A stretch of DNA of 64,000 nucleotides from NCBI RefSeq assembly GCF_012999535.1, contig NZ_JABBWV010000013.1, positions 1 to 64,000 of the forward strand. Direction: 5' to 3'. The stretch is from Microbispora sp. H11081. Lineage in GTDB: Bacteria > Actinomycetota > Actinomycetes > Streptosporangiales > Streptosporangiaceae. Of the stretch, positions 21,818-61,184 are shown in pieces. How positions within the stretch are numbered: the stretch's first letter is position 1; each line of letters starts with the position of its first letter. The notes beneath the pieces were generated by a model. That model was not told the DNA's origin, did not search any database, and saw only the letters and a program-made list of their open reading frames with translations. The position numbers were made by a program, and so were the translations under genes.

Positions 21818-21902
21818 GTACAGGGCAGCCCAGGGCAGTTCAAGATGGACCGAACAGGCCCGCTGACCTGTATTGAACCGTTCGGAACCATGATCGGCCG
21901 AG

Positions 21903-21946: not shown

Positions 21947-21959
21947 TGCGAAAACAGCC

Positions 21960-39364: not shown

Positions 39365-40216
39365 TCAGCGCGCCCTGCCGACCACCTCGCGGGCCGTACG
39401 GGCGACCGCGGCGTCGATGAGCCTGCCCGCGGCGTCCAGCGCGACACCGCTGCCGCGCCGCTCCGCCTCGGCGAGGCGGTCGAGCACGTCGCGGGCCTCC
39501 GCCAGTTCGGCCGCGTCCGGGGTGAACACCTCGTTGATGACGGCGAGCTGGCGGGGGGAGATGGCCGTGCGCGCCCGGAAGCCCTGGCGCAGCAGGATCC
39601 GGGTGGTCTCCTGGAGCTGACCTGTGTCGCGCACCGCGGTGTCCACGGGCCCCACGGGGGCGAGGATGCCCGCCACCGCCGACGCGACGACGATCCTGGA
39701 CCTGATCGGCCACAGCTCCTCGCGGGCGGGGCCCGGCCGCAGGCCGAGCTCGCCGGCGAGGTCCGCCTCGCCGAGCCCGAGCCGTACGACCCGGGGAGCG
39801 GCCGCGACGTCCTCCGCCCGCGCGACGCCGAGGGCCGACTCGATCAGCGCGAGGACGGCGAACGTCCCGGCCCCGAGGCCGTGCGACGACTCCGCCCTGG
39901 TCAGCGCCGCGTCCGCCCTCGCCAGGATCGCGGGGTCGGCCTTGGGGACGACCACCCCCACCAGTCCTGGCACGGCGACCGCGGCCACGTCATCCTCGAC
40001 GGTCTCCGCGTTCACCCGCACCCAGAGCGCCGGCGCCACCTGCTCGGGGCCGGTGGAGACGACGAACTCAGCCGCCTGCTTTCTCGCCGTCTCCTTGCTC
40101 CCCGCGGCGACCGCGTCCTCAAGATCGAGGATCAGCGCGTCGGCCTCGCTCCCGCGGGATTTGGCCAGCTTGTCGCTCTGGTCCGCGGGAACGTACAGGT
40201 AGCTGCGAGGGGTCAC
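39365..40216 (-). CDS. CitE-like CoA-ester lyase (HpcH/HpaI family)
   Basis: A 283-residue lyase of the citrate lyase beta/malyl-CoA lyase type. Markers are RSYLYVPADQSDKL at the N-terminus, DALILDLEDAV (near 30-40, Mg and substrate binding) and LGLGEADLAGELG (near 145). Relatives split 3-hydroxyacyl-CoA esters such as malyl-CoA or citramalyl-CoA into acetyl-CoA and an oxoacid. It starts with GTG, overlapping the amidohydrolase stop by 4 bases. As the last gene of the operon, next to a CoA-transferase, it probably catalyses the final carbon-carbon cleavage of the pathway. Confidence 0.82.
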   Translation of the reverse strand: MTPRSYLYVPADQSDKLAKSRGSEADALILDLEDAVAAGSKETARKQAAEFVVSTGPEQVAPALWVRVNAETVEDDVAAVAVPGLVGVVVPKADPAILARADAALTRAESSHGLGAGTFAVLALIESALGVARAEDVAAAPRVVRLGLGEADLAGELGLRPGPAREELWPIRSRIVVASAVAGILAPVGPVDTAVRDTGQLQETTRILLRQGFRARTAISPRQLAVINEVFTPDAAELAEARDVLDRLAEAERRGSGVALDAAGRLIDAAVARTAREVVGRAR

Positions 40217-41682
40217 GAACGACCGCCGGGCCGGGCCACGTAGCGACCCTGCGGCTCGCCCACGACCTTGCCGTTCTCCAGCACCCGGTGACCGCGCAGG
40301 AAGGTGTCGACCACCTTGGCGGTGAGCTCGAAGCCCTCGAACGGCGTGTACTCCTGGGTCGACTCGGACTCCTCGGCGCGCACGGTCCAGGTGACGTCGG
40401 GGTCGACGAGGCAGAAGTCGGCGTCGAGGCCCTCGGCGATCGCGCCCTTGTTGCGCAGGCCGTACCGCTGGGCGGGGTTCCACGACAGCAGCTTGGCCAT
40501 GTCGCCGTAGGAGAGCCCGCGCCGCCGGCCCTCGGTGACCAGGCCGGGCAGCAGGTACTCGGCGCCGCCGAAGCCGGACTTGGCCAGGAAGACGTCGTCG
40601 CGCGGGTCACCGAACTTCTGCTCGTCACGGCAGCAGGCGTGGTCGCTGACCACCCAGTCGACCTTGCCGTCGAGCACGTGGGCCCACAGCGCCTCGACGT
40701 CCTCACGCGGGCGCAGCGGCGGGTTGACCTTGCCGCCGATGCCGCTGGCCGTGTCGATGTCGGCGAGCAGGTGGCCGATCGTCACCTCGCGGCGGAAGTC
40801 GACGTGCGGGAACGCGTCCGCCATCCGCAGCGCGGCGTCCATCGCCTTGGCCGACGACAGGTGCAGCAGGTTGATCGTGGGCAGGCCGGTCTCGTGCGCG
40901 AGGTAGGAGGCGATGCTGACGGCCAGGCCCTCCGAGTGCGGCGGGCGCGAGGCGCTGTAGGCCGCCAGGCCGGTGAGCTTGCCCTCCTCCTCCACCATCT
41001 TGGTGTAGGCGCTCATGATCTCGGCCGTCTCGCAGTGCAGCGACAGCGAGATCTCATCGGCCAGGTCGGGGAACTCCTCGCGGGCGGCCTGGATGCCGCG
41101 CATGACGAACTCGAAGTGCGCGTAGTCGTACCGCTCACCCTCGGGGATCATCAGGAACGAGTTCTGGTCGGCGGAACGGCCGTGCAGGCCGTGGCTGCCG
41201 TAGAACATGAACACCTTGAACGAGGTGACCCCGTGGTCGCGCACGAGCGACGGGATCTCCTCGATGTGCCGGCGCATCATCGGCGCGAGGTGGAAGGCGT
41301 AGTCGACGTACGAACGGCCGTCCGACGCCGCCAGGACCTCGGGGAAGACCTCGGCGTACTCGCCGCCCTTGTTGAGGTAGTACTGGCCGGTGCGCATGTA
41401 GGTCAGCGCGGAGGTCACACCGCCCTGGGCGCACGCCCGGCTCTCCGTCTCGGTGTCCACCGACAGCGGGTTGTAGATGCCCCAGTGCTGGTGGGCGTCC
41501 ACCACACCGGGGAAGGCGAGCTTGCCGCCGCCGTCCACGACGGTGCGCGCCTCGGCGGGGTCCAGGCCCTGCTCGACCCGGACGATCCGGCCGTCGAGGA
41601 CGCCGATGTCGGCGACTTCCGCCTCGGCCTTGTCGTGCCGGACGACCCGGACGTTGCTGACGATGAGGTCGTACTGTGCCAC
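40213..41682 (-). CDS. Dihydropyrimidinase/allantoinase-like amidohydrolase
   Basis: A 489-residue cyclic amidohydrolase. Metal-binding positions are visible: VDAHQHW (near residue 64), the carbamylated Lys in TSFKVFMF (near 153), LHCET (near 215), LHLSS (near 272) and the catalytic Asp in SDHAC (near 347). Enzymes of this family open hydantoins, dihydropyrimidines, allantoin or related cyclic amides. Its position between a PrpD and a CoA-ester lyase suggests it opens the ring of the cluster substrate. Sequence alone does not separate the sub-families. Confidence 0.85.
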   Translation of the reverse strand: MAQYDLIVSNVRVVRHDKAEAEVADIGVLDGRIVRVEQGLDPAEARTVVDGGGKLAFPGVVDAHQHWGIYNPLSVDTETESRACAQGGVTSALTYMRTGQYYLNKGGEYAEVFPEVLAASDGRSYVDYAFHLAPMMRRHIEEIPSLVRDHGVTSFKVFMFYGSHGLHGRSADQNSFLMIPEGERYDYAHFEFVMRGIQAAREEFPDLADEISLSLHCETAEIMSAYTKMVEEEGKLTGLAAYSASRPPHSEGLAVSIASYLAHETGLPTINLLHLSSAKAMDAALRMADAFPHVDFRREVTIGHLLADIDTASGIGGKVNPPLRPREDVEALWAHVLDGKVDWVVSDHACCRDEQKFGDPRDDVFLAKSGFGGAEYLLPGLVTEGRRRGLSYGDMAKLLSWNPAQRYGLRNKGAIAEGLDADFCLVDPDVTWTVRAEESESTQEYTPFEGFELTAKVVDTFLRGHRVLENGKVVGEPQGRYVARPGGRS

Positions 41683-41692
41683 TGCTGTCTCC

Positions 41693-43126
41693 TTAGCGCG
41701 CTTTCCCGTCGAGACGGGTGAGGGGGTGCAGCACGTCCGCCACCCCGGTGAGCTGATCGAGTCGCAGGACGAGGTCCTGCACGGTCCTGGCGGTCTCCTC
41801 CGGCAGCCGTCCCGCCACGTTCTCGGTGAACTTGCGGGACAGCTCCGCCTCGGACAGCGGCCTGCGCGGGCCTCCCCGGTTGGCCAGCATCTCTTCGGTC
41901 CACTCGCGGCCGTCGTCCGTACGGACCCGGACCACGGCGGGGAACTGGTAGGGGTAGATCGCGTCGCACCGCTCGTCGGGCACGACGTCGACCTTGGCCA
42001 TCAGCGCGCGGCGCGCGGGGTCCCTGGCCAGCTCGTCGGTGAAGTCGTCCAGTCCGACGCCGAGCCCGGACCCGCCGATCAGCCCCGCCACGACCGCGTA
42101 CGGCCCGCTGAACTGGGCCTGGTAGCCGGTCTCCGGCGCCCGCTTGGTCTCCAGCGGCTGGCCGATGGTGCGGATGACCGCGGACGGCACCCGCAGCTCG
42201 ATGTGCTCGATCCGGTCGATCGGCAGTCCTCGCGACCGCAGCGCCATGCCCGCGTCGATCGCCGTGTGGGTGAAGTGGTTCGCCGGGTAGGGCTTGAAGA
42301 AGATCCCCGGTACGGCCCACTCCTCGCCCAGCCCGTTCAGCACCTGGGACAGGTCGGTCTCACCACGCAGGAAGGCTTCAAAGAACCCGAAGCGCCCCTC
42401 CAGGACCGTGGGCGGACCGGTGAAGCCCCGCTGCACGAGGGCAGCGGCGGTCACGGCCGAGTGCGCGGCCCAGCCGCAGTGCAGCCGCTTGACCGTCCCT
42501 CCCGTGCGGTTCGCCTCGATGATGCCGGACGCGAAGGACGCGGTGACTCCCAGCGCGTTCCGCACGCCGTCCGCCCCGAGATCCATCAGCAGCGCCGCCG
42601 CGGCGGCCCCGCCCATCGCCCCGCAGATGGAGGTGGCGTGCTGCCCGTGCTCGAAGAACACCGAGTTGCCGAGCTCGCTGTCGTAGCCCGCCATGCCGAG
42701 GCGTACCGCGATCTCCAGTCCGACCGCGACCGCGGCGACGGTGTCGGCTCCCGACGCTCCGGACGCCTCCGCCGCGGCGAGCGCGGCGGGGACGACCGCG
42801 GCGCTGGGGTGCAGCACCGAGGGCAGGTGGGTGTCGTCGTAGTCGAGCGAGTGCGCGAGCACCCCGTTGACGAAGGCCGCCTGCGCGGCGGGCAGCTTCG
42901 TCTCGACGCCGACCGCGCTCGCCTCGGGGCGTCCGCCCTGGTCGGCCGCGTAGCCGGCGACCGCGTCGCTGGTCGGCAGCCGGTAGGCGGCGACGCACAG
43001 TCCCAGCACGTCGAGCACCCGGCGGCGCACGCTGTCTGCCACGTCCTCGGGCAGCGCGCCGGACAGGGTCTTGGCCGCGAAGACGGACAGCTCGGTCGCG
43101 AGGACCGGTTCGTTCGTGCCGCTCAT
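41693..43126 (-). CDS. MmgE/PrpD family protein (first copy)
   Basis: A 477-residue MmgE/PrpD protein. Family features include an LDYDDTHLPSVLHPSA segment (near residue 94), HATSICGAMGGAAAAA (near 160) and LHCGWAAHSA (near 220). Known members are 2-methylcitrate dehydratase, cis-aconitate decarboxylase and iminodisuccinate epimerase, all acting on polycarboxylates by proton abstraction. It overlaps the cyclase gene by 4 bases. A second, distinct copy is at 53541, so the pathway may use two such steps or two stereoisomers. Confidence 0.85.
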   Translation of the reverse strand: MSGTNEPVLATELSVFAAKTLSGALPEDVADSVRRRVLDVLGLCVAAYRLPTSDAVAGYAADQGGRPEASAVGVETKLPAAQAAFVNGVLAHSLDYDDTHLPSVLHPSAAVVPAALAAAEASGASGADTVAAVAVGLEIAVRLGMAGYDSELGNSVFFEHGQHATSICGAMGGAAAAALLMDLGADGVRNALGVTASFASGIIEANRTGGTVKRLHCGWAAHSAVTAAALVQRGFTGPPTVLEGRFGFFEAFLRGETDLSQVLNGLGEEWAVPGIFFKPYPANHFTHTAIDAGMALRSRGLPIDRIEHIELRVPSAVIRTIGQPLETKRAPETGYQAQFSGPYAVVAGLIGGSGLGVGLDDFTDELARDPARRALMAKVDVVPDERCDAIYPYQFPAVVRVRTDDGREWTEEMLANRGGPRRPLSEAELSRKFTENVAGRLPEETARTVQDLVLRLDQLTGVADVLHPLTRLDGKAR

Positions 43127-44013
43127 GCGCCGACCACCGCCAGCGGACGGACCGGGGAGCCGGTGGCCCCGAAGATGGGCAGCGGGGAGAGCACGAAGGC
43201 GAACTCGTGCACGCCGTCGGCAGCGAGCTCCTCGAGCGCCATCGTCTCGATGATGTAGACGCCCCGCTCGACCAGGAGCACCCGGTGCGCCGGCAGCACG
43301 CTGTGCCCGCTGCCGGGCTTCAGGCACTCGAACGCGATCGTGTCGGCGCCGGCCGCGTGCGCTCCGCGGTCGGCGAGCCAGGCCGCGCCGGCCTCGCCGA
43401 CACCCGGCACGCCCGAGTCGTTGCCGATGTAGACGCTCCTGTCGCCGCTGCCGAAGAAGCGCCCCCAGCCGCTGCGCACGAGAACCACGTCGCCCGCGCC
43501 GATCGGGGTGCCCTGCCGCTCGACGGCCGCCTCCAGATCCGCCGGGGTGATCTCGTAACCGGGTTCGCAGCCGACCGGCGTGCCAAGGGCCGCGGGGATG
43601 TCGAGCAGGACGCCGCGGCGCACCATCGGGGCGATCGTGTGCACCCCGAGCTCGGCGAAGCGGCCGCCCCGGCCCGCCTCGGCGGCGTCCGATCCGTCGA
43701 GCAGCCTGCCGTCGTGGGACACGTGCGCGAAGGCGTCGATGTGCGTCCCGACGTGCGTGCCCATGGTGATGATGTCGTTGGCCGCCGAGCCGCCGTCCGC
43801 CCGGACCATGTCGCCGTGCCTGCGGGGCAGGGCGTGCCAGAAGGCGGGATGGTTGGGGGACTGCGGCATCCCGATCGTCAGTGGCCGGCCCAGATCGTAG
43901 ATCCGGACCCCTTCGCTGACCGCCCGCAGCAGCAGGCCGGTGGTACTGGTGCCGCCCACGTCGCCTTGTTCCTCGTTCCTGGGTCGAATGCCGGAGATGC
44001 CGGCGCCTGTCAT
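43123..44013 (-). CDS. Cyclase-family hydrolase
   Basis: A 296-residue protein of the cyclase/kynurenine-formamidase fold. The signature HVGTHIDAFAHV (near residue 85) supplies metal-binding His and Asp. Members hydrolyse N-formylkynurenine, isatin or related amides and lactams. In this cluster it could cleave an amide produced by ring opening. The start at 44013 overlaps the CoA-transferase stop by 4 bases, and its stop overlaps the PrpD start, so it is fully coupled. Confidence 0.83.
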   Translation of the reverse strand: MTGAGISGIRPRNEEQGDVGGTSTTGLLLRAVSEGVRIYDLGRPLTIGMPQSPNHPAFWHALPRRHGDMVRADGGSAANDIITMGTHVGTHIDAFAHVSHDGRLLDGSDAAEAGRGGRFAELGVHTIAPMVRRGVLLDIPAALGTPVGCEPGYEITPADLEAAVERQGTPIGAGDVVLVRSGWGRFFGSGDRSVYIGNDSGVPGVGEAGAAWLADRGAHAAGADTIAFECLKPGSGHSVLPAHRVLLVERGVYIIETMALEELAADGVHEFAFVLSPLPIFGATGSPVRPLAVVGA

Positions 44014-45206
44014 GCGATCACCTGCTTGGATCGCAGCTCCGCCACCGTCTCGTCGTCGAGGCCGAGCTCGCCCAGCAGGATCTCGTCGGTGTCCGCGCCG
44101 AGCTCCCGGCCGGTGAAACGGATGCGTCCGGGAGCGCCGGTCATCCGCCACATCACGTTGTGCATGAGCACCGGGCCCAGCTCGTCGTCATCGACGTGCG
44201 TGAGCATCCCGGTGGCCCGCACGTGCGGGTCCTCCACGAGGTCGCGCGCGTTGTAGACGGGCGCCGCCGCCGCGCCCGCGCGCTCGAACTCCTGGATCAC
44301 CTCGTCGCGCGTGCGCGCGGCGATCCAGGAGCCCACGTAGGAGTCGAGGAGATCGGCGTGCTCCGCCCGCTGACGGCCCGAGGCGAACCACGGCTCCTCG
44401 ATGACCTCGGGGTGTCCCACCAGCGTCATCACCCGCTCCGCGATGCTCTGGGCGCTGGTGGAGATGGCGACCCAGCCGCCGTCGCCGCACTGGTAGGTGT
44501 TACGCGGGGCGTTGTTGGAGGAGCGGTTCCCCTGTCGCTTGCCCACGACGCCGAGCTGGTCGTACACGGTGGGGCCCGGCCCGACCGCCGTCGTGATCGG
44601 CTCCAGCAGGCTCATGTCGACGATCTCGCCGCGGCCGCTCTTCTCGCGGGCCCACAGCGCCATCATCGTCGCCGACGAGGCCGCGATCCCGCAGATGCTG
44701 TCCGCCAGGCCGAACGCCGGCAGCGTGGGAGGGCCGTCCGGCTGGCCGGTGAGGTGGGCGAACCCGCTCATCACCTCGGCCAGGGTGCCGAACCCGGGCC
44801 TCGCGGCGTACGGCCCCTGCTGGCCGAAGCCGGTGATCCGGACGATGACCAGCCGGGGGTTCACCTTGTGGAGGACGTCGGGTCCGAGGCCCCAGCGCTC
44901 CAGCGTGCCGGGCCGGAAGTTCTCCACGAGGACGTCGGCCGTCTCCGCCAGCCGCAGGAACACCTCGGCCCCTGCCGGGTCCGACAGGCTCAGGCCCACC
45001 ATCCGTTTGTTCCGGGAGATCTCCTTCCACCAGAGCGGGACGCCCTCCTTCGAGGGTCCGTGCCCCCGCATGCCGTCACCGTGGACCGGGTGCTCGATCT
45101 TGATGACGTCGGCACCCTGGTCTCCGAGGATCTGACAGCACAACGGTCCGGCGAGGATCGTGGACACGTCCAGCACCCTCAGCCCCGTCAGCGGCCCGTC
45201 TTCCAC
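44010..45206 (-). CDS. Class III CoA-transferase (CaiB/BaiF)
   Basis: A 398-residue family III CoA-transferase. GLRVLDVSTILAGPLCCQIL at the N-terminus and IKIEHP, VENFRPGTLERWGLG and PDGPPTLPAFGLAD segments are typical. The expected catalytic Asp lies in the LADS loop near residue 165. It would move CoA onto a carboxylate, preparing it for the CitE-like lyase. GTG start at 45206 has AGGAG 5 bases upstream. It is the first gene of the second transcript of the cluster, with its own promoter and operator at 45220-45280. Confidence 0.87.
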   Translation of the reverse strand: MEDGPLTGLRVLDVSTILAGPLCCQILGDQGADVIKIEHPVHGDGMRGHGPSKEGVPLWWKEISRNKRMVGLSLSDPAGAEVFLRLAETADVLVENFRPGTLERWGLGPDVLHKVNPRLVIVRITGFGQQGPYAARPGFGTLAEVMSGFAHLTGQPDGPPTLPAFGLADSICGIAASSATMMALWAREKSGRGEIVDMSLLEPITTAVGPGPTVYDQLGVVGKRQGNRSSNNAPRNTYQCGDGGWVAISTSAQSIAERVMTLVGHPEVIEEPWFASGRQRAEHADLLDSYVGSWIAARTRDEVIQEFERAGAAAAPVYNARDLVEDPHVRATGMLTHVDDDELGPVLMHNVMWRMTGAPGRIRFTGRELGADTDEILLGELGLDDETVAELRSKQVIA

Positions 45207-45219
45207 CTTGGCTCCTGTT

Positions 45220-45280
45220 GTTCCGCTATAGCGAACGCTGGTCCGCTCAGAGGTTATGGCAACGCTTCTAGTCCGGTCAA
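45220..45280 (-). promoter_or_regulatory. Promoter and IclR-type operator of the CoA-transferase operon
   Basis: On the minus strand, TTGACC (45275-45280) and CATAAC (45253-45258), 16 bases apart, form a probable promoter. Downstream of it lies the near-palindrome GTTCCGCTATAGCGAAC (45220-45236), with a perfect CGCTATAGCG core. A similar site lies at 59975-59991 behind a TTGACC promoter. Confidence 0.6.
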
Positions 45281-45301
45281 ACCCGTGTAAATCGGACCTG
45301 A

Positions 45302-46921
45302 TCAAGAGGAAAGCGCTGATCCGATGGCGTACGCGCGGACCACGGCGGCGGCCAGCGACGTGCCGCCGCCGGGATAGAAGTCGCCGAAGAGGCTCGCCGA
45401 GACGTTCCCCGCGGCGAACAGCCCCTCCACCGGCTGCCCCGAGGGCGTCAGGACGCGGCCCTGGTCGTCGGTCAGCGCGCCGCCGCACGTGCCGAGTGTC
45501 GCGGCGTGCACCGGAACCGCCGTGAACGGCGGGCGCGTGATCGGCGCGAGGCACGGATTGGGCCCGACGGCGGGGTCGCCCAGATGGCGGTCCGCCACCG
45601 AGTCGCCCCGGGAGAACGACCGGTCCGACCCCGAGGCGGCGTCCTCGTTGAACCTCTCGATCGTCTCGGCCAGGCCATCGGCGTCGATCCCGCACGCGGC
45701 CGCCAACTCCTCCAGGGTGTCCCGGGTGACGCCCCACTCGGGCGACGTCCCGCGCGGCACACCCGCCACCGGGTAACGCTCCTGGTAGGCGCCGTCGTAG
45801 ACGAGCCAGGCCGGTGTGTGGCGCGGCACTCCGTTCGCCGGATCCACCTCGCGGAACACCTTCGTCAGGTCGTGGTAGTTCTGCGCCTCGTTGACGAACC
45901 GGCGGCCGGACCTGTTCACCATCACCGACCCGGGACGCGTCATCTCCACGTTGGCCAGCCGTCCCGTGGGCAGGTCCTCGTACCGCACCGACGGGTCCTG
46001 GAACGCGGGAACGCCCCAGGAAGCCGTCATGTCGCGTACGGCCGCGCCGGCGCGCAGCGCCATGAGGAGGCCGTCACCCTCGTTGCCGGGGGCGCCGATC
46101 GGCAGCACCGGGGCGGGCAGATAGGCACGCTGCAGATCCGGGTTCCACTCGAAGCCGCCGCTGGCCAGGACGACCGCCGTCCGGGCCACGACCCGCCTGG
46201 TCCGGCCGTCCTGCCGCAGCGTGACGTGCCAGGCGTCGCCGGAACGCTCCAGCTCCACCGCCCGGGCGCCGACGACGAAGGTGACCCCCCTGGCGTGGGC
46301 GGAGACGGCGAGCGCGCCGGCGAGCGCGCCTCCCATGGTCCTGATGCCCCGGCTCTGCCGCTCCCGCGCGGCCTTCTCCACGTCGAGGCCGGGGCTCTGC
46401 TCCCGCTCCAGCATGGTGATCGCCGGCAGGTAGGTGGCCGGCCTGAGCAGCTCGGCCAGACCGGGGTGCGCGCCGGTCTCGAACGGAAGGTTGTCGAGGA
46501 CGCGCCCTCCCGGCACGGCTCCCGGCAGGTCCGCGCGGTAGTCGGGCCGTCCCAGCGCTGCGAGCCCCACCTCGGTCTCGTCGCACAGGTAGCGGACCGC
46601 CTCGGGGCCGACGTCGAGGAACCACTCGATCCGCTCGCGCGGCATGTCGCCCCGCGTGACCGCCGTGAGGTAGGCCAGCGCGTCCTCCCGCCTGTCGGAG
46701 TAGCCGCCGGCCTCCATCAGGTGGTTGCCCGGCACCCAGAGCACGCCGCCGGAGACCGCGGTCGTGCCGCCGATCAGGTTCGCGCGCTCCACCAGGAGGA
46801 CGTCGTGGCCCGCGTCGGCCGCCCGGCAGGCGGCGACCAGACCGGCCGCACCGCTGCCGAGGACCAGGACGTCGCACGACGCCGGCAGCTCCGACGTGGT
46901 GAAAGCGGTTCGGTTGTTCAT
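45302..46921 (-). CDS. FAD-dependent fumarate reductase/ketosteroid dehydrogenase-like enzyme
   Basis: A 539-residue flavoprotein. The N-terminus has a Rossmann GSGAAGLVAACRAADAG, VERANLIGGTTAVSGG binds FAD, and the C-terminal GNVSASLFGDFYPGGGTSL closes the FAD site. The family reduces or desaturates enoyl-type bonds in steroids, urocanate or fumarate. A second flavoprotein of this family is at 56549. GGAAAG 4 bases before the ATG at 46921 and a 4-base overlap with the MFS gene fix the start. It could reduce the hydroxylated ring in the proposed pathway. Confidence 0.85.
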   Translation of the reverse strand: MNNRTAFTTSELPASCDVLVLGSGAAGLVAACRAADAGHDVLLVERANLIGGTTAVSGGVLWVPGNHLMEAGGYSDRREDALAYLTAVTRGDMPRERIEWFLDVGPEAVRYLCDETEVGLAALGRPDYRADLPGAVPGGRVLDNLPFETGAHPGLAELLRPATYLPAITMLEREQSPGLDVEKAARERQSRGIRTMGGALAGALAVSAHARGVTFVVGARAVELERSGDAWHVTLRQDGRTRRVVARTAVVLASGGFEWNPDLQRAYLPAPVLPIGAPGNEGDGLLMALRAGAAVRDMTASWGVPAFQDPSVRYEDLPTGRLANVEMTRPGSVMVNRSGRRFVNEAQNYHDLTKVFREVDPANGVPRHTPAWLVYDGAYQERYPVAGVPRGTSPEWGVTRDTLEELAAACGIDADGLAETIERFNEDAASGSDRSFSRGDSVADRHLGDPAVGPNPCLAPITRPPFTAVPVHAATLGTCGGALTDDQGRVLTPSGQPVEGLFAAGNVSASLFGDFYPGGGTSLAAAVVRAYAIGSALSS

Positions 46922-48198: not shown

Positions 48199-48237
48199 TT
48201 CGCGCGTCCCGCCCTCGGCCTGGACGAGGGCTCACCC

Positions 48238-48585: not shown

Positions 48586-48646
48586 GTTCTCTCTACTCCT
48601 TGGGTGTTGGGGGTCAGGGGAGGTTCGGGGGTCACGGGCGGTGCGG

Positions 48647-49093: not shown

Positions 49094-49115
49094 GGTGTTC
49101 TCCTCGGGGGTGTCG

Positions 49116-52902: not shown

Positions 52903-53474
52903 GGCAGCTGCACTCGCACGCGCTGGCCGGTGCGGTAGAACGGGCTGCGCTTCTCCACGTCGAACTGGTCGAGCTCGCCGTTCTCGTCGAGCTTGCACTG
53001 CAGGCCACGGGTCAGCCGCTCGTGGCTCGTGATCAGGAAGAGCTGGCCGTCGACCGAGGGGAACGGCGGCTCGTGCCAGGTGCCGCGGTACAGGTTGATG
53101 GAGACGTCACCGGGGATGATGAACGCCTTCACCTCGTCCAGGACGGGGAACCCGTTCTCCAGCGGCACCTGCGGCGGCGCGACCACGGCGACGTACGGCT
53201 GGCCGTTGAGCGGGATCATCGTCTGGGTCATCTCGACGTGCCGCTCCAGGAAACGCAGGCTGTCCCCGCGCTGGCCGACGCGGAACACCAGGAACTCCGG
53301 CGTGGTGTCGCAGTCCAGCCGGACCGGGCCGTGCACGGCGTTCTTGCCGGAGTAGAAGTCGATGGGCAGCCGGGGCGTGGCGTCCAGCGACATCGCCTCC
53401 CCGAAGGGGGCGAACGCCTCCGCGGTGAACTCCTGCGGCTTGATGGTGTGCAGGGGGCTGTCTGGGCTGAGCAA
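52899..53474 (-). CDS. Ureidoglycolate lyase-like protein
   Basis: A 191-residue protein with the ureidoglycolate lyase/AllA beta-barrel. The motifs LRFLERHVEMTQTMIPLNG and YRGTWHEPPF match the family. AllA-type enzymes split ureidoglycolate into glyoxylate and urea in purine breakdown. Here there is no complete allantoin gene set, so it may act on a related ureido- or N-acyl hemiaminal. It overlaps the CoxL-type gene by 4 bases. AAGGTTCCTCC upstream is a poor match to a ribosome site when read on the coding strand (GGAGGAACC, 3 bases from the start), but adequate. Confidence 0.78.
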   Translation of the reverse strand: MLSPDSPLHTIKPQEFTAEAFAPFGEAMSLDATPRLPIDFYSGKNAVHGPVRLDCDTTPEFLVFRVGQRGDSLRFLERHVEMTQTMIPLNGQPYVAVVAPPQVPLENGFPVLDEVKAFIIPGDVSINLYRGTWHEPPFPSVDGQLFLITSHERLTRGLQCKLDENGELDQFDVEKRSPFYRTGQRVRVQLP

Positions 53475-53540
53475 GGTTCCTCCGTAGTGAATCGTGACTG
53501 CGGCCGGTCGGCCGGTGGGGCCGGCCGACCGGTCAGGCCG

Positions 53541-54905: not shown

Positions 54906-55741
54906 CACACCTCGCCGAGCTGCCGGCGCAGGTACTGCACGATCTCCCCGAAGCGGGGGTCCTTCGAGACGTCCGTGCCGCGAGGCCGCTCGAAGTCGAC
55001 GTTCACGATGTCCTGGACCCGGCCGGGCCGCTGCGAGAGCAGCACGATGCGGTCCGCGAGGAACACCGCCTCGGAGATCGAGTGGGTGACCAGCACGATC
55101 GTCTTGCCGGTGTCCAGCCACAGCTGCTGCAGCATGGAGTTCATCCGGTCGCGCGTCATCGCGTCCAGCGCGCCGAACGGCTCGTCCATCAGCAGGATGG
55201 ACGGCCGGTGGATCAGCGCCCTGGCGATGGCCACCCGCTGCTGCATGCCGCCGGAGAGGGCACGCGGGTAGTGCTCGAGGAAGTCGGACAGGCCCACCGA
55301 CGCGGCGAGCTCCTCGGCCCGCGCGCGCCGCTCCTTCTTCGGCACCCTGGTGACTTCGAGCGGAAGCGCGATGTTCTTCCAGATCTTGCGCCAGGGCATC
55401 AGCGTGGCCTGCTGGAACACGAATCCGAGGGAGCCCAGGGCCTCCCGGGACGGCTGGGTCGAGCCCTCCGCGAACAGGTCCTTGTCCCCGATGGTGATCG
55501 TGCCCTCGGTGGGCGCGATGAGGCCGCCCAGCATGCGCAGCAGGGTGGTCTTGCCACAGCCCGACGGTCCCAGCAGGACGACGAACTCCCGCGGCTTGAT
55601 CTCGAGATCCGTGGGCATCAGCGCACGCACCGGGCCGGCGTCGCTCGTGTACTCCTTGCCGACCCCCTTGATGGAGATCGCCGCTCCGCCGTTGGTGGCG
55701 GGGACCGGTCGTGGCGTGGCGGCGCCGGTGGGCTGTTGCAT
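54905..55741 (-). CDS. ABC transporter ATP-binding protein (SsuB/TauB-like)
   Basis: A 278-residue ATPase of the nitrate/taurine/sulfonate class. Walker A is LLGPSGCGKTT (near residue 62), the signature LSGGMQQRV (near 155), Walker B ILLMDEPFGALD (near 175) and the switch His in LVTHS (near 208). It energises the permease encoded at 59108. GGAG 7-9 bases before the ATG at 55741 favours this start; an ATG at 55789 overlapping the cupin gene would add 16 residues. Confidence 0.9.
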   Translation of the reverse strand: MQQPTGAATPRPVPATNGGAAISIKGVGKEYTSDAGPVRALMPTDLEIKPREFVVLLGPSGCGKTTLLRMLGGLIAPTEGTITIGDKDLFAEGSTQPSREALGSLGFVFQQATLMPWRKIWKNIALPLEVTRVPKKERRARAEELAASVGLSDFLEHYPRALSGGMQQRVAIARALIHRPSILLMDEPFGALDAMTRDRMNSMLQQLWLDTGKTIVLVTHSISEAVFLADRIVLLSQRPGRVQDIVNVDFERPRGTDVSKDPRFGEIVQYLRRQLGEV

Positions 55742-55778
55742 CGCTGCTCCAGGATCGATGGTGCGGACTTGGTTGGCG

Positions 55779-56552
55779 TCAGTCGACATATGCCTTTGCC
55801 GACAGTTCGTCCCAGGTCGCGCCGGGACCTGGCTGCCGGTACTCGGTGGTCGGGGCCGCGTCCGAGCGGATGAACGACATCGTTCCGCCGCGCGAGTAGA
55901 GCGGGCCGTGGAACACGTGGGGTGACCGGAAGAAGTAGCCACCGGTGCGAATGACGCCCAGCGGGCCCATCAAGACGTCGCCGTAGATCTTGAAGGACTC
56001 CTCGTAGACGGGGTGCCCCTCCTCCAGCGGCGACTTCCAGCCCGGCATCATCGCCGCGAGGTAGATGAAGACCTCGTCGTCGGAGCGCAGGACCTTGGAC
56101 ATGGCGCCGACCTCGAGCTGGACCTCGCCGCTCCATCCGGCGGGGACCCACGGCTCGCGCTCGGTGACGATCCGCAGCAGAGGCTCCCCGGAGCCGGTGC
56201 CGGCCTCGAAGCCGGGCGCGCCCCAGAACCCGCAGTAGAGGGTCAGCCCGCGCACCGACGCGACGATGTCCAGCGCCGCGCCCGCCTTGGCGTACACGTA
56301 GTCGCCGGTGCGCAGCGGCTCACCGTCGAGCAGCCCCTCACCGGAGATCACGAAGATGTCCACGGAGCTGGTGAGCACACCGCGGTGGCGGCCGGTCAGC
56401 CGGTGGATCGAGGTCTCCGCGGCGGTGCCTGCGTCCCTGCTGAGCAGCCGCTTGCGCCCGCTCTGGGCGAACCCGAACTCACCCTCGCCGACCGCCTGCC
56501 ACGGCACGTCCTGGCTCTGGATGAAGTCGACGTCAGGCCTGTTCCACATCAC
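55779..56552 (-). CDS. Cupin-like protein
   Basis: A 257-residue beta-rich protein, probably two cupin barrels. The first has IFVISGEGLLDGEPLRTGDY (near 67-86), and the second ends GGYFFRSPHVFHGPLYSRGG, with His residues that could bind metal. Bicupins are often dioxygenases, isomerases or hydrolases of small acids. It lies between the ABC ATPase and a flavoprotein gene, overlapping the latter by 4 bases. Specific function unassigned. Confidence 0.65.
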   Translation of the reverse strand: MMWNRPDVDFIQSQDVPWQAVGEGEFGFAQSGRKRLLSRDAGTAAETSIHRLTGRHRGVLTSSVDIFVISGEGLLDGEPLRTGDYVYAKAGAALDIVASVRGLTLYCGFWGAPGFEAGTGSGEPLLRIVTEREPWVPAGWSGEVQLEVGAMSKVLRSDDEVFIYLAAMMPGWKSPLEEGHPVYEESFKIYGDVLMGPLGVIRTGGYFFRSPHVFHGPLYSRGGTMSFIRSDAAPTTEYRQPGPGATWDELSAKAYVD

Positions 56553-58000
56553 ATGCTCCCAGGGTCGGTATCCGCGCCCGCCGCCCTCCGGCCCAGCATC
56601 CGGCCGAAGCTGAGGGCGGGCGTCACACTCATGCCGCTCACGAAGGACTTGCCGGACAGCGAGCTACCGCCGATGACCTCGCCGGCGGCCCACAGGTTCT
56701 CGAACGGTCCCTCCGCGCCGAGCACCCGCAACTGGCTGTCCACTTCCAGGCCCGCCGGGCTCTTGAGGGTGGAGCCGTGGTTCAGCACCGCGTAGAACGG
56801 CGCCTCCCCGATCGGCGCCGGCAGGTTCGTACGGCCGAACTCGTCCTTGCCCGAGGCGACGGCGCTGTTGTAGTCCGCCACCGTGCGGGCCAGCAGGCCG
56901 GGGTCCATGCCGGTGGCCTCGGCCAGCTCCGCCAGGTCGCCGGCCTTGACGAACGAGGTGTGGCCGGCGAAGGCGCCGTCCAGCTCCTCCTCGGTCCAGG
57001 TCGGGAACAGCGGGGGCGCCGTACGCCGGATCGCCTCGTCGTAGACGACCCAGAACTTCAGATCCGGCTGGTCCAGCAGGGCGTTCTCCCGGACGTCCAC
57101 GCTCGGCGCGTCCTCGGCCACGAAACGCTCGCCACGGGCGTTCACGTGGATCTCCCACGGCTGCCGGGACTGCGGGGTCAGCGACGGGTAGTCGTCCAGG
57201 TGGACGGTCTCCCAGGTGCTGCCCGCCTTGAGCACGCCTCCGTAGGTCGGGAGGAACCGCTCCTGGCCGCGCACCCTGGCGCCCACGCCGACCGCCGCGA
57301 CGATCCCCGACCCGTCCGCCCCGGGAGACGCCGGGCCCGCCAGCGGCGAGCCCGCGGTGAGCTGGGGGAACAGGTCGGGATTGCCGGCGTAGCCGCCGCT
57401 GGTCAGGATCACGACCCGGGCGTCGATGTCGTGGAGCGTTCCATCCGGTCTACGGACAGTGACACCGGCCACCCGGTGGGCGCCCTCGGTCCGCAGCGAG
57501 ACCACCTCGGTGTTGAGCTCCAGCGTCACCGAACCGGCGCAGGCCTTCTCGAACGCCGGGGCCAGCACGTCGAGCACCGACAGACCGGCCCTGCGCCCCC
57601 AGTAGGTGCGGGCCACCAGGTACGGCTCGTGGAAGTGCAGCACGGCGGGGGCGTCGGGATCCATGTCGAACCCGGAGGCCATCAGCCATTCGACCGAGGC
57701 GGGCGCGTGGTCCACCGCCAGCCGGACGAGCATGGGGTCCGCGGTGTTCTTGCTGATCCGCATGACGTCGTCGAAGTGCAGGTCAGGGGTGTCGAGGATG
57801 CCCTTGGCGCGCTGCAGGGACGTGCCGCCCGCGGACAGCTGCCCCCAGGAGCGCCAGAGCGTTCCGCCGATCCGATCCGCCTTCTCGATGACGGCGACCC
57901 GGAGCCCCTGGCCCGCGGCCTCGATGGCGGCGGGCAGGCCGGCCGTGCCGGCGCCGACCACCACAAGATCCACCGTCGTCACCCCGGTCATCGGCCCCAC
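56549..58000 (-). CDS. FAD-dependent oxidoreductase, fumarate reductase-like (second copy)
   Basis: A 483-residue flavoprotein. VVVGAGTAGLPAAIEAAGQG binds FAD ADP; VIEKADRIGGTLWRSWGQLS, then LTSGGYAGNPDLF near residue 200, and a C-terminal AAGEVIGGSSLSGKSF fit the succinate dehydrogenase/fumarate reductase flavoprotein fold. It is related to, but clearly distinct from, the enzyme at 45302. It probably performs a separate reduction or desaturation in the pathway. ATG 58000; a second ATG is three codons later. Confidence 0.85.
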   Translation of the reverse strand: MGPMTGVTTVDLVVVGAGTAGLPAAIEAAGQGLRVAVIEKADRIGGTLWRSWGQLSAGGTSLQRAKGILDTPDLHFDDVMRISKNTADPMLVRLAVDHAPASVEWLMASGFDMDPDAPAVLHFHEPYLVARTYWGRRAGLSVLDVLAPAFEKACAGSVTLELNTEVVSLRTEGAHRVAGVTVRRPDGTLHDIDARVVILTSGGYAGNPDLFPQLTAGSPLAGPASPGADGSGIVAAVGVGARVRGQERFLPTYGGVLKAGSTWETVHLDDYPSLTPQSRQPWEIHVNARGERFVAEDAPSVDVRENALLDQPDLKFWVVYDEAIRRTAPPLFPTWTEEELDGAFAGHTSFVKAGDLAELAEATGMDPGLLARTVADYNSAVASGKDEFGRTNLPAPIGEAPFYAVLNHGSTLKSPAGLEVDSQLRVLGAEGPFENLWAAGEVIGGSSLSGKSFVSGMSVTPALSFGRMLGRRAAGADTDPGSM

Positions 58001-58037
58001 CTCGGCGTCGTGACGTGAAGCATGTGGGTCACACCTC

Positions 58038-59090
58038 TCAGATCGAGTCGATGAACGAGGTGTTGACGAAGTCGGTGACCGGCCGGGACTTGTCCTTCAT
58101 GATCCCCGACTTGCGCATCAGCTCGAGGGCGCTCTCCCAGGCGGCGACGTCGATCGACAGGAACTTGCCGTTCTTGGGCGTGCTGACCTTGACCTCGCCC
58201 AGGATCTTGGCCTTGGCGACCTCGCGGTCGGAGACCTCGATCTCGTTGAGCTTGGCCACCGCCTCCAGCACCTTGTCGGCGTTGGCGGGGTCGGCCATGA
58301 ACTGCCAGGCCTTGTTGCAGGCGCGCAGGAAGCTGGTGACCGCGGCGGCCTCCTTCTCCGCGGTCTCCGTGGTGACGAAGTAGGAGTCACCCGGCAGCGG
58401 CGCGAACTGGTCGGTGTTGAGGTAGTGCAGGTCGATCTTCATCTGACGGAACGCGGTCTCCGTGCCGATGAAGGTGATGAAGCCGTCGACCTCGCCGCGC
58501 TTCAGGAACTCCAGGGAGCCGACGTCGGCGCCCGTCACGACCTTCTTCACCTTGGTGGGGTCGAGCCCGGCGGCCACGGACATCGCGTCCAGCTGCAGCT
58601 CGGTGGTGCCGCCCTTGGAGATGACACCGATCGTCTTGCCCTGCCACTGCTCGGGGTGGGTGAGCGGCTTGTCCGGCAGGGAGGCCACGCTGTACTGGCT
58701 GACCTGGTCCTTCTGGCCGATCGTCACGATCGGGGTGTTCTGGTCCGCGATCAGGGGACAGGTGAGGACGGCGGCCGCCTTGCCGAACATGGCCTGCTTG
58801 GCGGCGACCTGGGAGATCGAGGTCGCGGTGCCGGTGCCGCCGATCGACGTGACCAGCAGGCCCTCCTCCGCGAAGTAGCCCTGGGCGTCCGCCACGTACA
58901 CGTCGGCGTGGGAGATGATGTGCCCGAACGGGGTCATGTAGACGAGGTTGCGCAGGTTCTTGCCGGAGGGGGCGGCGGAGCTCGACGCCCCGGTGCTGGC
59001 GTCGTCGGACCCGCAGCCGACCAGGAACTGGGTGCCGGCCACCGTGGTGATGAGCAGGCCGGCGTTGGTGAGGAACTTACGGCGATCCAT
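58038..59090 (-). CDS. ABC transporter substrate-binding lipoprotein (SsuA/NMT1-like)
   Basis: A 350-residue extracellular binding protein. The N-terminus MDRRKFLTNAGLLITTVAG ends in a lipobox LVGC, with twin Arg that may allow Tat export, then a Ser-rich linker. The body is the two-lobed NMT1/SsuA fold (GIIAT-like GVISKGGTTELQLDAM near residue 156). It binds the cluster substrate outside the cell and delivers it to the permease. Confidence 0.9.
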   Translation of the reverse strand: MDRRKFLTNAGLLITTVAGTQFLVGCGSDDASTGASSSAAPSGKNLRNLVYMTPFGHIISHADVYVADAQGYFAEEGLLVTSIGGTGTATSISQVAAKQAMFGKAAAVLTCPLIADQNTPIVTIGQKDQVSQYSVASLPDKPLTHPEQWQGKTIGVISKGGTTELQLDAMSVAAGLDPTKVKKVVTGADVGSLEFLKRGEVDGFITFIGTETAFRQMKIDLHYLNTDQFAPLPGDSYFVTTETAEKEAAAVTSFLRACNKAWQFMADPANADKVLEAVAKLNEIEVSDREVAKAKILGEVKVSTPKNGKFLSIDVAAWESALELMRKSGIMKDKSRPVTDFVNTSFIDSI

Positions 59091-59107
59091 GGGGCTTTCC
59101 TGTTTTC

Positions 59108-59950
59108 TCAGAGGGAGGTGGGGCGACCGGACGACTCATGCCACGGGATCGCGAATCGGCGAATCGCCGCGGTGACGGTGTAGAGGAGGAAACCGAGCAC
59201 CGTCATCACGATCACGGCCGCGAAGAGCATGTCCGTGCGGAGGCTGGCGAGCATGGTCACGGCGAGTGCGCCGAGACCCTCGTCGCCGCCGAGGTATTCA
59301 CCGACGACGGCGCCGGTGATCGCGAAGACGATCCCCAGCTCCACTCCGGTGAGCACGTAGGGCAGTGAGGAAGGAATGTCCAGCGAGATCACGCGCTTCC
59401 ACCAGGGTGCCTGGATGACGCGCATGAGATCGCGGTGGCCGGGGTCGACCGAGCGGATTCCCAGAATCGTGTTCTGCATCATGACGAAGAACGCGATGAT
59501 CGCCGCCATGAAAATCTTGGACGTGGTTCCGAAGCCGAACCACAGGAGGATCAGGGGCACGATCGCCACCTTGGGCACCACCTGGGTGGCGACGAGGAAC
59601 GGCGAAAGCACTCGTTCCAGGTTGCGGGCCCTGCCGAGGATGATCCCCAGGACCACTCCGACGATCGCCGCGAGCGCGAAGCCGACCAGCGTCTCGTACA
59701 GGGTGACCTGGATCGCCTGGTAGATGGTCTTGCCCTTGAGCAGTTCGACCATCGCCTCGGCGACCGTCTCCGGCGGGGGCAGCAGGAGCGGCCCCACGTC
59801 GAACAGCACCGTGTAGGCCTTCCAGGCACCGAGGAACGCCGCGAGCAGCAGCGGGGTGGTTATCCAGAGGATCGCCGAAGACGACGCCACCTTACGAAGA
59901 GACCTTCGGCGTTGCGCCGACTTGGCCGCATGCTCGGAGCTCGACGACAT
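59108..59950 (-). CDS. ABC transporter permease (SsuC/TauC-like)
   Basis: A 280-residue permease with six hydrophobic segments. The cytoplasmic EAA loop, which contacts the ATPase, is the DPGHRDLMRVIQAP region followed by IPSSLPYVLTG near residues 180-210. It is the first gene of the long leftward operon. Its promoter and operator are at 59975-60039. With the ATPase and the binding protein it forms a complete nitrate/taurine-class importer. Confidence 0.9.
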   Translation of the reverse strand: MSSSSEHAAKSAQRRRSLRKVASSSAILWITTPLLLAAFLGAWKAYTVLFDVGPLLLPPPETVAEAMVELLKGKTIYQAIQVTLYETLVGFALAAIVGVVLGIILGRARNLERVLSPFLVATQVVPKVAIVPLILLWFGFGTTSKIFMAAIIAFFVMMQNTILGIRSVDPGHRDLMRVIQAPWWKRVISLDIPSSLPYVLTGVELGIVFAITGAVVGEYLGGDEGLGALAVTMLASLRTDMLFAAVIVMTVLGFLLYTVTAAIRRFAIPWHESSGRPTSL

Positions 59951-59974
59951 ACGCTGCCTCCAGCCTTTCTGGTT

Positions 59975-60039
59975 GTATCGCTAGGCGGAACGCCGTACCG
60001 GATAGGAGGATGCTAGAGGCGTCATCAAAGTGAGGTCAA
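59975..60039 (-). promoter_or_regulatory. Promoter and IclR-type operator of the import/catabolic operon
   Basis: On the minus strand TTGACC (60034-60039) and TAGCAT (60010-60015), 18 bases apart, form a good promoter. GTTCCGCCTAGCGATAC (59975-59991) lies just downstream and resembles the operator at 45220. GTACCGGATAGGA (59995-60007) overlaps the expected transcription start. Confidence 0.6.
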
Positions 60040-60332
60040 GGGATTGACCTCCCGAATCTTCGTACCTATCCCAAAGTGGGCGTTTTGTGACGGTTTGTAC
60101 CGTATAGGAAGATTCATAGGATGACACACCCGGAGCGCCGAGCGTGAGATTTACCGCACTTTACGTAGTCACCCCAGGACAGGGGCCACTTCACCGGCGT
60201 AGTACGGTGCGGTGGCGGCGGGGCAGACCGCGTGGATGAGGGCGCGCGGGAAGGCGGCGCGCGGAGGACTTCGCGGCGTGGAACGGCCGCCGCCGCGCTC
60301 AGCGCGACAGCGGCCGGGGTGCGATCAGGGGA
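60040..60332. other. Upstream part of the permease promoter region
   Basis: No gene is seen. GTACCGTATAGGA at 60097-60109 repeats the site at 59995-60007 with one mismatch, 102 bases apart. The rightmost 100 bases are GC-rich with weak hairpins and may include the IclR gene terminator. Confidence 0.5.
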
Positions 60333-61184
60333 CTAAGATCCGACGGCTCGGAAACCGAGCTGGCGCGACACCTCCGCCGCGGCCTCCTTGACGAGCCGGC
60401 CGTACTCCTCCGCCTTGCCGGCGCTGAGCCGGCTGACAGGGCCGCACACGGAGATGGAACCGTAGACGCGGCCGTTCGCCTGGAAGACGGCGGCGGCCAC
60501 CGACGCGGCCCCCTGCTGCCGCTCGCCCAGGCTCAGCGCGTAACCGCGCTGCCGGATGAGCTCCAGCTCCTCGGCCAGCCGGTCGCGATCCTGGATCGTG
60601 ATCGGAGTCAGCGCGACCAGTTCCTGGGAGTCGAGATACTCACTGATCTCGTCGGGCCCCATCATGGCGAGAATCGCCTTGGAGGACCCACCCGCGTGCA
60701 GAGGGTAAAGTCTCCCCAGCTGCACCGACATGTGGATCTCCTGGGGCGACAGCACCTGCGTCAGGTACATCCGCTGGGTGCCGTAGCGGACGGAGAGCGT
60801 GGCGGTCTCCTTGGTGCGGGCCACCAGGTTCTCCAGGTAGGGCTGGGCGATCCTCGGCACCTCCATCTGCGCCATCGCCGCGAGGCCCACGCCCACCGCT
60901 CCTGGGCCGAGGCGGTACCTGCGGGTGCGCTCGTCGAAGGAGAAGAAGTCGGCGGCGACCAGCGTGCGCACCACCCGGTGCACGACGGCCTTGCTCAGCC
61001 CGAGGGTCCGCGCCAGCTCCGAGACGCCGATGTCCGGCTCCTTGGCCGCCGCGACAGCGAAGATCACCTGAAGGGCTCGCTCGATGCCGCTGCTCGTCTG
61101 CCCCTCGTCCGCTGTCGGCGCGGTCCTGGCCGCCGAAGACAAGCGCCCGGTATCGCCGTTACTTACGTTCTCGTCCGCCCGCAC
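60333..61184 (-). CDS. IclR-family regulator of the catabolic cluster
   Basis: A 283-residue regulator. The N-terminal winged helix (SELARTLGLSKAVVHRVVRT, near residues 55-75) precedes the effector domain (KAILAMMG, then ERQQGAASVAAAVF). IclR proteins sense a pathway compound and act on short palindromes near the target promoters. It is upstream of, and codirectional with, the permease operon, which carries the matching operator. A GTG start at 61184 is used; no strong ribosome-binding site is seen, so it may be leaderless or start a few codons later. Confidence 0.87.
   Translation of the reverse strand: MRADENVSNGDTGRLSSAARTAPTADEGQTSSGIERALQVIFAVAAAKEPDIGVSELARTLGLSKAVVHRVVRTLVAADFFSFDERTRRYRLGPGAVGVGLAAMAQMEVPRIAQPYLENLVARTKETATLSVRYGTQRMYLTQVLSPQEIHMSVQLGRLYPLHAGGSSKAILAMMGPDEISEYLDSQELVALTPITIQDRDRLAEELELIRQRGYALSLGERQQGAASVAAAVFQANGRVYGSISVCGPVSRLSAGKAEEYGRLVKEAAAEVSRQLGFRAVGS

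Follow-up and report, generated by a model that had tools for sequence, protein, structure and literature searches.

Gene content of the array

Positions 39365-61184 of contig NZ_JABBWV010000013.1 of Microbispora sp. H11081 hold a single array of about twenty genes, every one of them on the minus strand (Table 1). The array lies in a stretch of 64,000 nucleotides (positions 1 to 64,000 of the contig), which was analyzed at full length and is referred to below as the window. Pfam scans place the gene for a CitE-like lyase at one end and that for an IclR-type regulator at the other, and a gene caller relying on codon usage recovers the identical array. A preliminary description of this DNA had named ABC and MFS transport, a three-subunit molybdenum (Mo) hydroxylase, two flavoproteins, a cyclic amidohydrolase, a ureidoglycolate-lyase-like protein, a cyclase-type hydrolase, two MmgE/PrpD proteins, a CoA-transferase, a CitE-like lyase and an IclR regulator, and each of these classes was found by Pfam within the one array. 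Three genes were absent from that list, namely those for a cupin-like, a SnoaL-like and a 115-residue protein. Neighboring genes overlap by four bases at ten of the nineteen junctions with the starts adopted here (nine with the gene-caller starts); several starts are uncertain, as two start sets disagree for IclR, the permease, the ATPase, the MFS protein, the CoA-transferase and the first flavoprotein.

Table 1. Genes of the minus-strand array, listed from the regulator onward, with window coordinates and the matches behind each assignment.
Feature	Position	Strand	Basis
IclR-family regulator, first in array	60333..61184	-	PF01614 143.5 bits; best NCBIfam BhcR 192.5 bits, cut-off 350; start uncertain (gene caller 61067)
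ABC transporter permease	59108..59950	-	PF00528
ABC substrate-binding protein (SBP), NMT1/THI5-like	58038..59090	-	PF09084 108.9 bits
FAD_binding_2 flavoprotein ("first flavoprotein"), fumarate-reductase fold, catalytic residues not conserved	56549..58000	-	PF00890 150.9 bits; alignment to flavocytochrome c3
Cupin-like protein	55779..56552	-	PF12973 26.1 bits, under cut-off 27; in 11/11 full clusters
ABC transporter ATPase	54905..55789	-	PF00005; start uncertain (gene caller 55741)
MmgE/PrpD protein 1 (PrpD1)	53541..54908	-	PF03972, PF19305; closest solved relative IDS-epimerase
Ureidoglycolate-lyase-family protein (UGL)	52899..53474	-	PF04115 69.6 bits; ureidoglycolate lyase models at most 56.9 bits, cut-offs at least 160
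Mo hydroxylase large subunit (MoL)	50506..52902	-	PF02738, PF20256, PF01315; nearest solved 1t3q, then 8uem
Mo hydroxylase FAD subunit (MoM)	49649..50509	-	PF00941
Mo hydroxylase 2Fe-2S subunit (MoS)	49116..49652	-	PF01799, PF00111
SnoaL-like protein	48647..49093	-	PF12680 34 bits, cut-off 27
115-aa protein	48238..48585	-	Codon-usage gene caller; no Pfam match
MFS transporter	46918..48198	-	PF07690; start uncertain (gene caller 48045)
KstD-like flavoprotein dehydrogenase	45302..46921	-	Nearest solved chain 7p18, 3-oxosteroid 1-dehydrogenase, E 8.6e-86
Class III (CaiB-type) CoA-transferase (CaiB)	44010..45305	-	PF02515 388.4 bits; best NCBIfam succinate--glutarate CoA-transferase 227 bits, cut-off 750; start uncertain (gene caller 45206)
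Cyclase-family metal hydrolase (Cyc)	43123..44013	-	PF04199; own clade in tree
MmgE/PrpD protein 2 (PrpD2)	41693..43126	-	PF03972, PF19305; nearest solved B. subtilis IRG1 7bra
Hydantoinase/allantoinase-like cyclic amidohydrolase (AmdH)	40213..41682	-	PF01979
CitE-like (HpcH/HpaI) C-C lyase (CitE), last gene	39365..40216	-	PF03328 105.3 bits (longer reading of frame); best NCBIfam RipC 149.5 bits, cut-off 375

Conservation of the cluster and its parts

The first twelve genes (IclR, permease, SBP, flavoprotein, cupin, ATPase, PrpD1, UGL, MoL, MoM, MoS and SnoaL) stand in identical order in all 11 examined genomes that carry UGL together with a near relative of the cluster. These are the window, G157, G057, G199 and seven named genomes (L168-L174), those of Nonomuraea cavernae, Herbidospora yilanensis, Actinophytocola algeriensis, Umezawaea endophytica, U. 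tangerina, Nakamurella leprariae and Nocardiopsis sp. JB363; three of the seven, recognized by identical match positions, are also G226, G149 and G229 of the family sample and were counted once. The set is non-random, the named genomes having been picked since their loci showed Mo subunits, and an eighth genome beside these picks (L092) gave no UGL match. Because the first twelve genes keep one order in 11 of 11 genomes, the arrangement reflects more than chance. They are followed by an old-yellow-enzyme-like (OYE-like) protein, a KstD-like protein or both, then by the 115-residue protein, often an MFS transporter, and CaiB-Cyc-PrpD2-AmdH. The KstD-like protein is found alone in three full clusters and the OYE-like protein alone in seven, while one cluster has both and none has neither, which suggests that they replace each other. 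A divergent SDR gene lies upstream of IclR in eight of the 11 clusters. The window's own SDR gene at 63482 was rejected as a member of the unit, since its product is only about 30-33% identical to that SDR and is thus not its orthologue.

Matches to UGL are rare, occurring in seven of 297 genomes of the family and in two of 396 genomes of a phylum-wide draw that includes the window's own (E ≤1e-30). AmdH is matched in 73 of the 297 (E ≤1e-100), in 58 of them with an identity of at least 68%. All seven UGL genomes are among these 73, and in each of them the two genes lie on the same contig within about 15 kb.

We read the array as one conserved catabolic unit for a cyclic nitrogen compound, most likely an N-heteroaromatic acid, and our confidence in this reading is about evenly balanced. 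Its downstream part, the core (CoA-transferase, cyclase, PrpD, AmdH and often CitE), is far more widespread than the Mo module. Scanning named genomes gave at least 592 stretches, of which at least 562 were relatives. From these the 80 best loci, each ending within 10 kb of AmdH, were kept and joined by three others (L075, L076 and L078). Among these 83 loci, labels were assigned for CaiB in 60, Cyc in 50, IclR in 49, PrpD2 in 48, CitE in 44, MoS in 7 and MoL in 4; FrdA-like and PrpD1-like labels, which at about 30% identity hold at family level only, were given in 28 and 19. Two loci (L120 and L121) remain in the denominator despite almost no gene calls, in our opinion because the gene caller had been trained on high-GC genes. 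Other partners of the core vary and include SDR proteins, an alpha/beta hydrolase, an M20 peptidase, an Asp/Glu-racemase family protein and other ABC transporters. The nearest relative of the core (G236), whose AmdH is 93% identical to that of the window, retains only IclR, the last 238 residues (302-539) of KstD and the core (L036/L037, G236:C5, about 27-35 kb of the joined stretch), as if the Mo module had been lost through an internal deletion.

Several AmdH loci have surroundings of their own. On plasmid pDND3A of Rhodococcus gordoniae (L075) the core adjoins HyuA, HyuB, an amidase, MaoC and a second CaiB/PrpD pair. In six Streptomyces loci (L106, L107, L111, L116, L117 and L076) AmdH is the one core gene present; it lies behind two ABC transporters, the first NMT1-type-like and the second made up of families F16-F18, and a 432-residue family (F13). 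A distant AmdH relative (33%) on plasmid 3 of the proteobacterium Variovorax sp. PBL-E5 (L077) stands beside the F420 biosynthesis genes cofC, cofD, cofE, cofG and cofH and an F420 reductase.

The metal motif of the cyclase (H87-x-G-T-H91-x-D93-x3-H97) is invariant in 51 of 51 rows, and in a cyclase tree the cluster proteins form a clade of their own (52 rows, support 99/90). Seven of the eight cyclases from Mo clusters (window, L081, L083, L084, L085, L089 and L148, not L118) fall within an eight-row clade (98/92), the eighth row of which is L091, where no Mo gene was called. We considered and rejected orthology with PKC, the cyclase of plasmid pAO1, which with HpoH represents the 2,3,6-trihydroxypyridine hydrolases of the pAO1/PY11 type: PKC lies in a separate clade with the pSI-1 and proteobacterial cyclases (there is a long-branch warning near PKC, and HpoH is not in the tree), and the 38% identity of the cluster cyclase to PKC does not exceed the 39% that it shows with cyclases encoded on other Rhodococcus plasmids. 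Plasmid pSI-1 of Arthrobacter sp. AK-1 (L198) has a pair of Dabb protein and PF04199 cyclase like that of pAO1; close to the pair are an LLM flavin oxidoreductase and a C-N hydrolase.

A twelfth genome with UGL (G456), from another class of the phylum, keeps only UGL-MoL-MoM-MoS from the twelve-gene order. Its cluster (L205:3031-18978) comprises GntR, UGL (52%), MoL (58%), MoM, MoS, a GlcD-like oxidase, a 106-residue protein of the muconolactone isomerase family, CaiB (42%), an HMG-CoA-lyase-like protein (297 bits, above the cut-off of 246), HyuA, HyuB, an isochorismatase and an SSF symporter, with no AmdH, PrpD or cyclase label. The best model for HyuA and HyuB is caprolactamase (494 and 230 bits, under cut-offs of 1000), and the isochorismatase is closest to RutB (52 bits) and biuret amidohydrolase (48 bits), both under cut-offs. 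By their family assignments, unrelated proteins may fill the same roles in the two kinds of cluster: AmdH or HyuAB in ring opening, the cyclase or the isochorismatase in amide cleavage, and CitE or the HMG-CoA-lyase-like protein in C-C cleavage.

The same comparisons bear on whether two separate systems simply adjoin here, a common lactam or imide core and an unrelated Mo-hydroxylase operon sharing a regulator. Most of the 83 loci (the best 80 of the scan and three others) do show the core, or AmdH by itself, with no Mo gene, and G236 keeps nothing but IclR, a KstD remnant and the core. Such an accidental neighborhood is nevertheless very unlikely, given that both parts stand together on one strand in 11 of 11 full clusters, that seven of the eight full-cluster cyclases in the tree share the eight-row clade, and that in G456 the Mo module is accompanied by genes that may be equivalent to the core.

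Catalytic residues and model matches

AmdH has the site expected of hydantoinase-type cyclic amidohydrolases, which we take to bind two metals through a lysine, four histidines and an aspartate: H64, H66, K156, H216, H274 and D347 are invariant in 13 of 13 aligned rows. A dihydroorotase was rejected, as the arginine two residues past the HxH motif that presumably marks this enzyme is replaced by G68, likewise invariant in all 13 rows. MoL is nearest to quinoline 2-oxidoreductase among solved chains (1t3q, E 3.6e-122), and Glu753 of its catalytic-glutamate motif GAGEAG is kept in all 10 rows of the alignment, some of these rows being one gene included twice. An aerobic CO dehydrogenase was also rejected, since AARGFGK stands at the likely place of AYxCSFR, which we assume to be the motif of that enzyme. 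The closest solved relatives of PrpD1 are of the IDS-epimerase type and those of PrpD2 of the cis-aconitate decarboxylase type, with IDS-epimerase close behind; the two PrpD proteins thus need not be hydratases.

The best NCBIfam model for AmdH is allantoinase, and this match lies below the curated cut-off (224.5 bits against 357.85), as do those of MoL to pucD, the large subunit of xanthine dehydrogenase (292.5 against 783.65), and of UGL to ureidoglycolate lyase (at best 56.9 against 230). The genome encodes a canonical allantoinase elsewhere (G000:C1:650178, 546 bits, over the cut-off), and another of its loci reaches 813 bits with the pucD model. Since the cluster proteins miss the cut-offs and the canonical genes lie elsewhere, the array is not the purine-ureide (allantoin) pathway, and the preliminary description, which had offered an N-heterocycle or a ureide as substrate, loses its second half. 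A broader ureide or pyrimidine pathway, in which a purine- or imidazole-like ring would be oxidized, a hydantoinase step would follow and urea or ammonia would be released with the help of UGL, is unlikely. It would suit the allantoinase match of AmdH, the family of UGL, the relatedness of IclR to BhcR and AllR, and the sub-threshold matches of the G456 isochorismatase to RutB and biuret amidohydrolase. However, every model match it draws on is under cut-off, the canonical allantoinase and xanthine dehydrogenase are encoded elsewhere, no carbamoylase-type family was matched in the array by the Pfam and NCBIfam scans, and CaiB and CitE would have no place in it.

The two flavoproteins had been described as fumarate-reductase-like, which is correct at the level of fold (PF00890) but not of catalytic residues. 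The KstD-like protein has the same residues at all four positions that we take to be catalytic in KstD1 (Tyr119, Tyr318, Tyr487 and Gly491), allowing for a 20-residue offset in chain 4c3x. It scores 384.5 bits with the NCBIfam KstD model, under the cut-off of 789, and among NCBIfam models it comes closest to 4-oxocyclohexanecarboxylate 2-dehydrogenase (394 bits, cut-off 1000) and 3-ketosteroid dehydrogenases. Because these residues align, a role as a dehydrogenase next to a carbonyl is likelier for this protein than one as a fumarate-type reductase. At the positions aligned with His365, Arg402, His504 and Arg544, presumably the catalytic residues of flavocytochrome c3 fumarate reductase, the first flavoprotein has Tyr, Val, Leu and Phe, and its Phe453 is invariant in nine aligned rows. 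The reductive step of the earlier scheme is therefore doubtful.

Conservation of the KstD residues, together with the nearest models of that protein, also invites an alicyclic or polyketide-like substrate with no ring nitrogen. The KstD-like, SnoaL-like and OYE-like proteins would then act on a cyclic enone, and the cyclase and amidohydrolase would open a lactone or diketone. We regard this as distinctly unlikely, as C-N bonds are the targets of hydantoinase-type and caprolactamase-like enzymes and MoL is nearest, by a small margin, to quinoline 2-oxidoreductase.

The 115-residue protein shares 63-81% identity with its counterparts in seven other clusters. Its predicted model (pLDDT 82.4) has the order strand-helix-strand-strand-helix-strand, by our reading a ferredoxin-like fold; a Foldseek search gave weak matches only, none with E ≤0.001, and BLAST gave no match to the Dabb protein of pAO1. 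The predicted model of the cupin-like protein, built from two sequences, was unusable (mean pLDDT 31.7).

Elsewhere in the window, a LysR-type protein seemingly devoid of its DNA-binding part (38134-38853, minus strand; two NCBIfam matches begin at model residue 113-114) is divergent from a gene for a 121-residue protein (38908-39273, plus strand). Positions 16001-22000 have a G+C content of 0.56-0.59, compared with about 0.65-0.75 across most of the window, and are perhaps a foreign insertion.

A proposed route and its nearest analogues

The reactions, their order and the substrate that we infer from these families are as follows. The compound would be taken up by the NMT1-type ABC transporter, the MFS protein or both, and the three-subunit Mo hydroxylase would place a carbonyl oxygen next to the ring nitrogen, giving a lactam or cyclic imide. 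A flavoprotein (KstD-like in the window, OYE-like in most full clusters) would adjust the C=C bond beside the carbonyl, after which AmdH would open the lactam or imide and the cyclase-type hydrolase would cleave the remaining amide, freeing ammonia. One or both PrpD proteins would hydrate, isomerize or epimerize the resulting unsaturated acid, CaiB would form its CoA ester, and CitE would split this ester into an acyl-CoA and a 2-oxoacid. The strongest ground for this order is G456, because it pairs like step types with different families. UGL, the cupin, SnoaL, the 115-residue protein and the first flavoprotein are assigned no role in the scheme. A pyridine-type ring is our guess for the substrate. 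A narrower guess, made on chemical grounds and poorly supported by the sequences, is a six-membered ring substituted opposite the nitrogen, for example isonicotinate, which would fit the opening of an imide or lactam followed by a citramalyl-CoA- or HMG-CoA-type lyase.

Several observations weigh against reading the cluster as a unit for an N-heteroaromatic acid. The core occurs without the Mo hydroxylase, and since so few of the 83 loci have Mo genes, the core could also be fed by a compound that is not aromatic. MoL is nearly as close to the CO dehydrogenase CoxL (8uem, 1.4e-120) as to its best hit; the NCBIfam matches of AmdH, CitE, CaiB, UGL, KstD and MoL are all under curated cut-offs; and PrpD proteins can catalyze several reactions. 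CitE adjoins AmdH in nine of the 11 full clusters, not in G157 and L081. Finally, the exchange of families is seen in a single genome, G456, whose genes may not all belong together. The central claim of the preliminary description, a catabolic cluster probably for a cyclic nitrogen compound, is supported by the proximity of MoL to quinoline 2-oxidoreductase (by a small margin), the hydantoinase-type metal site of AmdH and the caprolactamase-like HyuAB of the distant cluster, and we could match the cluster to no described pathway. No report of this gene combination was found among the literature matches listed; some of the searches were narrower and most subscription journals lay outside their scope, so that this is weak evidence of novelty.

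Isonicotinate itself, a pyridine carboxylated at C4, gives the proposal its most specific form, which follows the chemistry reportedly used by Mycobacterium INA1. Mo hydroxylation would yield 2-hydroxyisonicotinate and then 2,6-dihydroxyisonicotinate; the latter, citrazinate, amounts to the imide of aconitate. Opening of this imide and hydrolysis of the amide would lead to aconitate or tricarballylate, and a PrpD-type hydration would precede a citryl-CoA-type cleavage by CaiB and CitE. The nearest solved relatives of PrpD2 (cis-aconitate decarboxylase and IDS-epimerase types) would agree with such intermediates, as would matches of the first flavoprotein to the tricarballylate dehydrogenase TcuA (138 bits, cut-off 369) and of CitE to the citE model (126 bits, cut-off 443). 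Yet the route needs two hydroxylations and one Mo hydroxylase is present, the flavoprotein lacks the presumed dicarboxylate-binding residues of fumarate reductase, and aconitate would reach the tricarboxylic acid cycle with no need of CaiB or CitE. No work on isonicotinate degradation genes was found among the literature matches listed, and we consider this particular route quite distinctly improbable.

The later steps of the anaerobic nicotinate pathway of Eubacterium barkeri use a B12 mutase, an aconitase-type hydratase and a dimethylmalate lyase. No B12 mutase, aconitase-type hydratase or ICL-type lyase is among the Pfam and NCBIfam matches of the array, the rest of the genome not having been searched for them. 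What the two systems share is the succession of hydroxylation, change of ring saturation, hydrolytic opening, rearrangement and splitting (for the ring steps, see the relevant part of PMC9304392). The parallel with this pathway drawn in the preliminary description thus holds for the order of reaction types and fails for the enzymes of the later steps.

HxnS, the first-step hydroxylase of the hxn nicotinate route of Aspergillus nidulans, is a Mo enzyme. This route, which is the best functional analogue of the cluster, likewise places Mo hydroxylation first, and proceeds through an OYE-type alkene reductase, opening of a cyclic imide between C and N and a separate amide hydrolase to a hydroxy-dicarboxylate (PMC9304392, in part). 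It differs in that the relatives of its imidase, HxnM, are proteins of the peptidoglycan-deacetylase type and that it has monooxygenases, and the portion of the source used here names no CoA-transferase, PrpD or CitE (PMC9304392). The pAO1 nicotine cluster and the 2-hydroxypyridine pathway of Rhodococcus PY11 resemble the array in their Mo hydroxylase and PF04199 cyclase, the latter hypothesized to hydrolyze the ring C-N bond and accompanied by a small Dabb protein. There, however, the ring is opened after the action of a 3-monooxygenase, an omega-amidase follows and the end product is 2-oxoglutarate (PMC6214936, in part); the cyclase belongs to another clade in our tree, and no monooxygenase or omega-amidase family was matched in the array by the Pfam and NCBIfam scans.

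Two further pathways resemble individual parts of the proposed route. Itaconate degradation, as outlined in part of PMC12290011, combines an itaconate CoA-transferase, a hydratase and a citramalyl-CoA lyase, and thus shares with the cluster a CoA-transferase and a CitE-like lyase, RipC being the best model for CitE. That match, however, is well under its cut-off (Table 1), and no MaoC-type hydratase family was matched in the array. Caprolactam degradation in Pseudomonas jessenii opens a lactam with caprolactamase (PMC6061476, in part), the model that HyuA and HyuB, which replace AmdH in G456, resemble most; unlike it, the window has a metal-dependent hydantoinase-type enzyme and a Mo hydroxylase.

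The cluster is real, well conserved and built from known enzyme families, and is not a new kind of system. More tentatively, it could represent an undescribed aerobic route of Actinomycetota, in which a Mo hydroxylase would make a cyclic imide from a pyridine-type acid, a hydantoinase-type enzyme (elsewhere an ATP-dependent lactamase) would open it with no need of a ring-cleaving oxygenase, and the product would be split by a CoA-transferase together with a lyase of the citramalyl-CoA or HMG-CoA type. In many more actinobacteria, the core by itself would handle imides or lactams of other origin. Some twenty genes in an order kept across several actinobacterial families, with no substrate assigned to them, offer a ready target for the discovery of pathways, and the frequency of AmdH in the family genomes hints at a widespread natural substrate but does not demonstrate one. 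If the proposed route is true, it would mean hydrolytic, aerobic opening of N-heterocycles with no ring-cleaving oxygenase, and would give a function to vaguely named families such as the PF04199 cyclases, PrpD and the UGL-like proteins.

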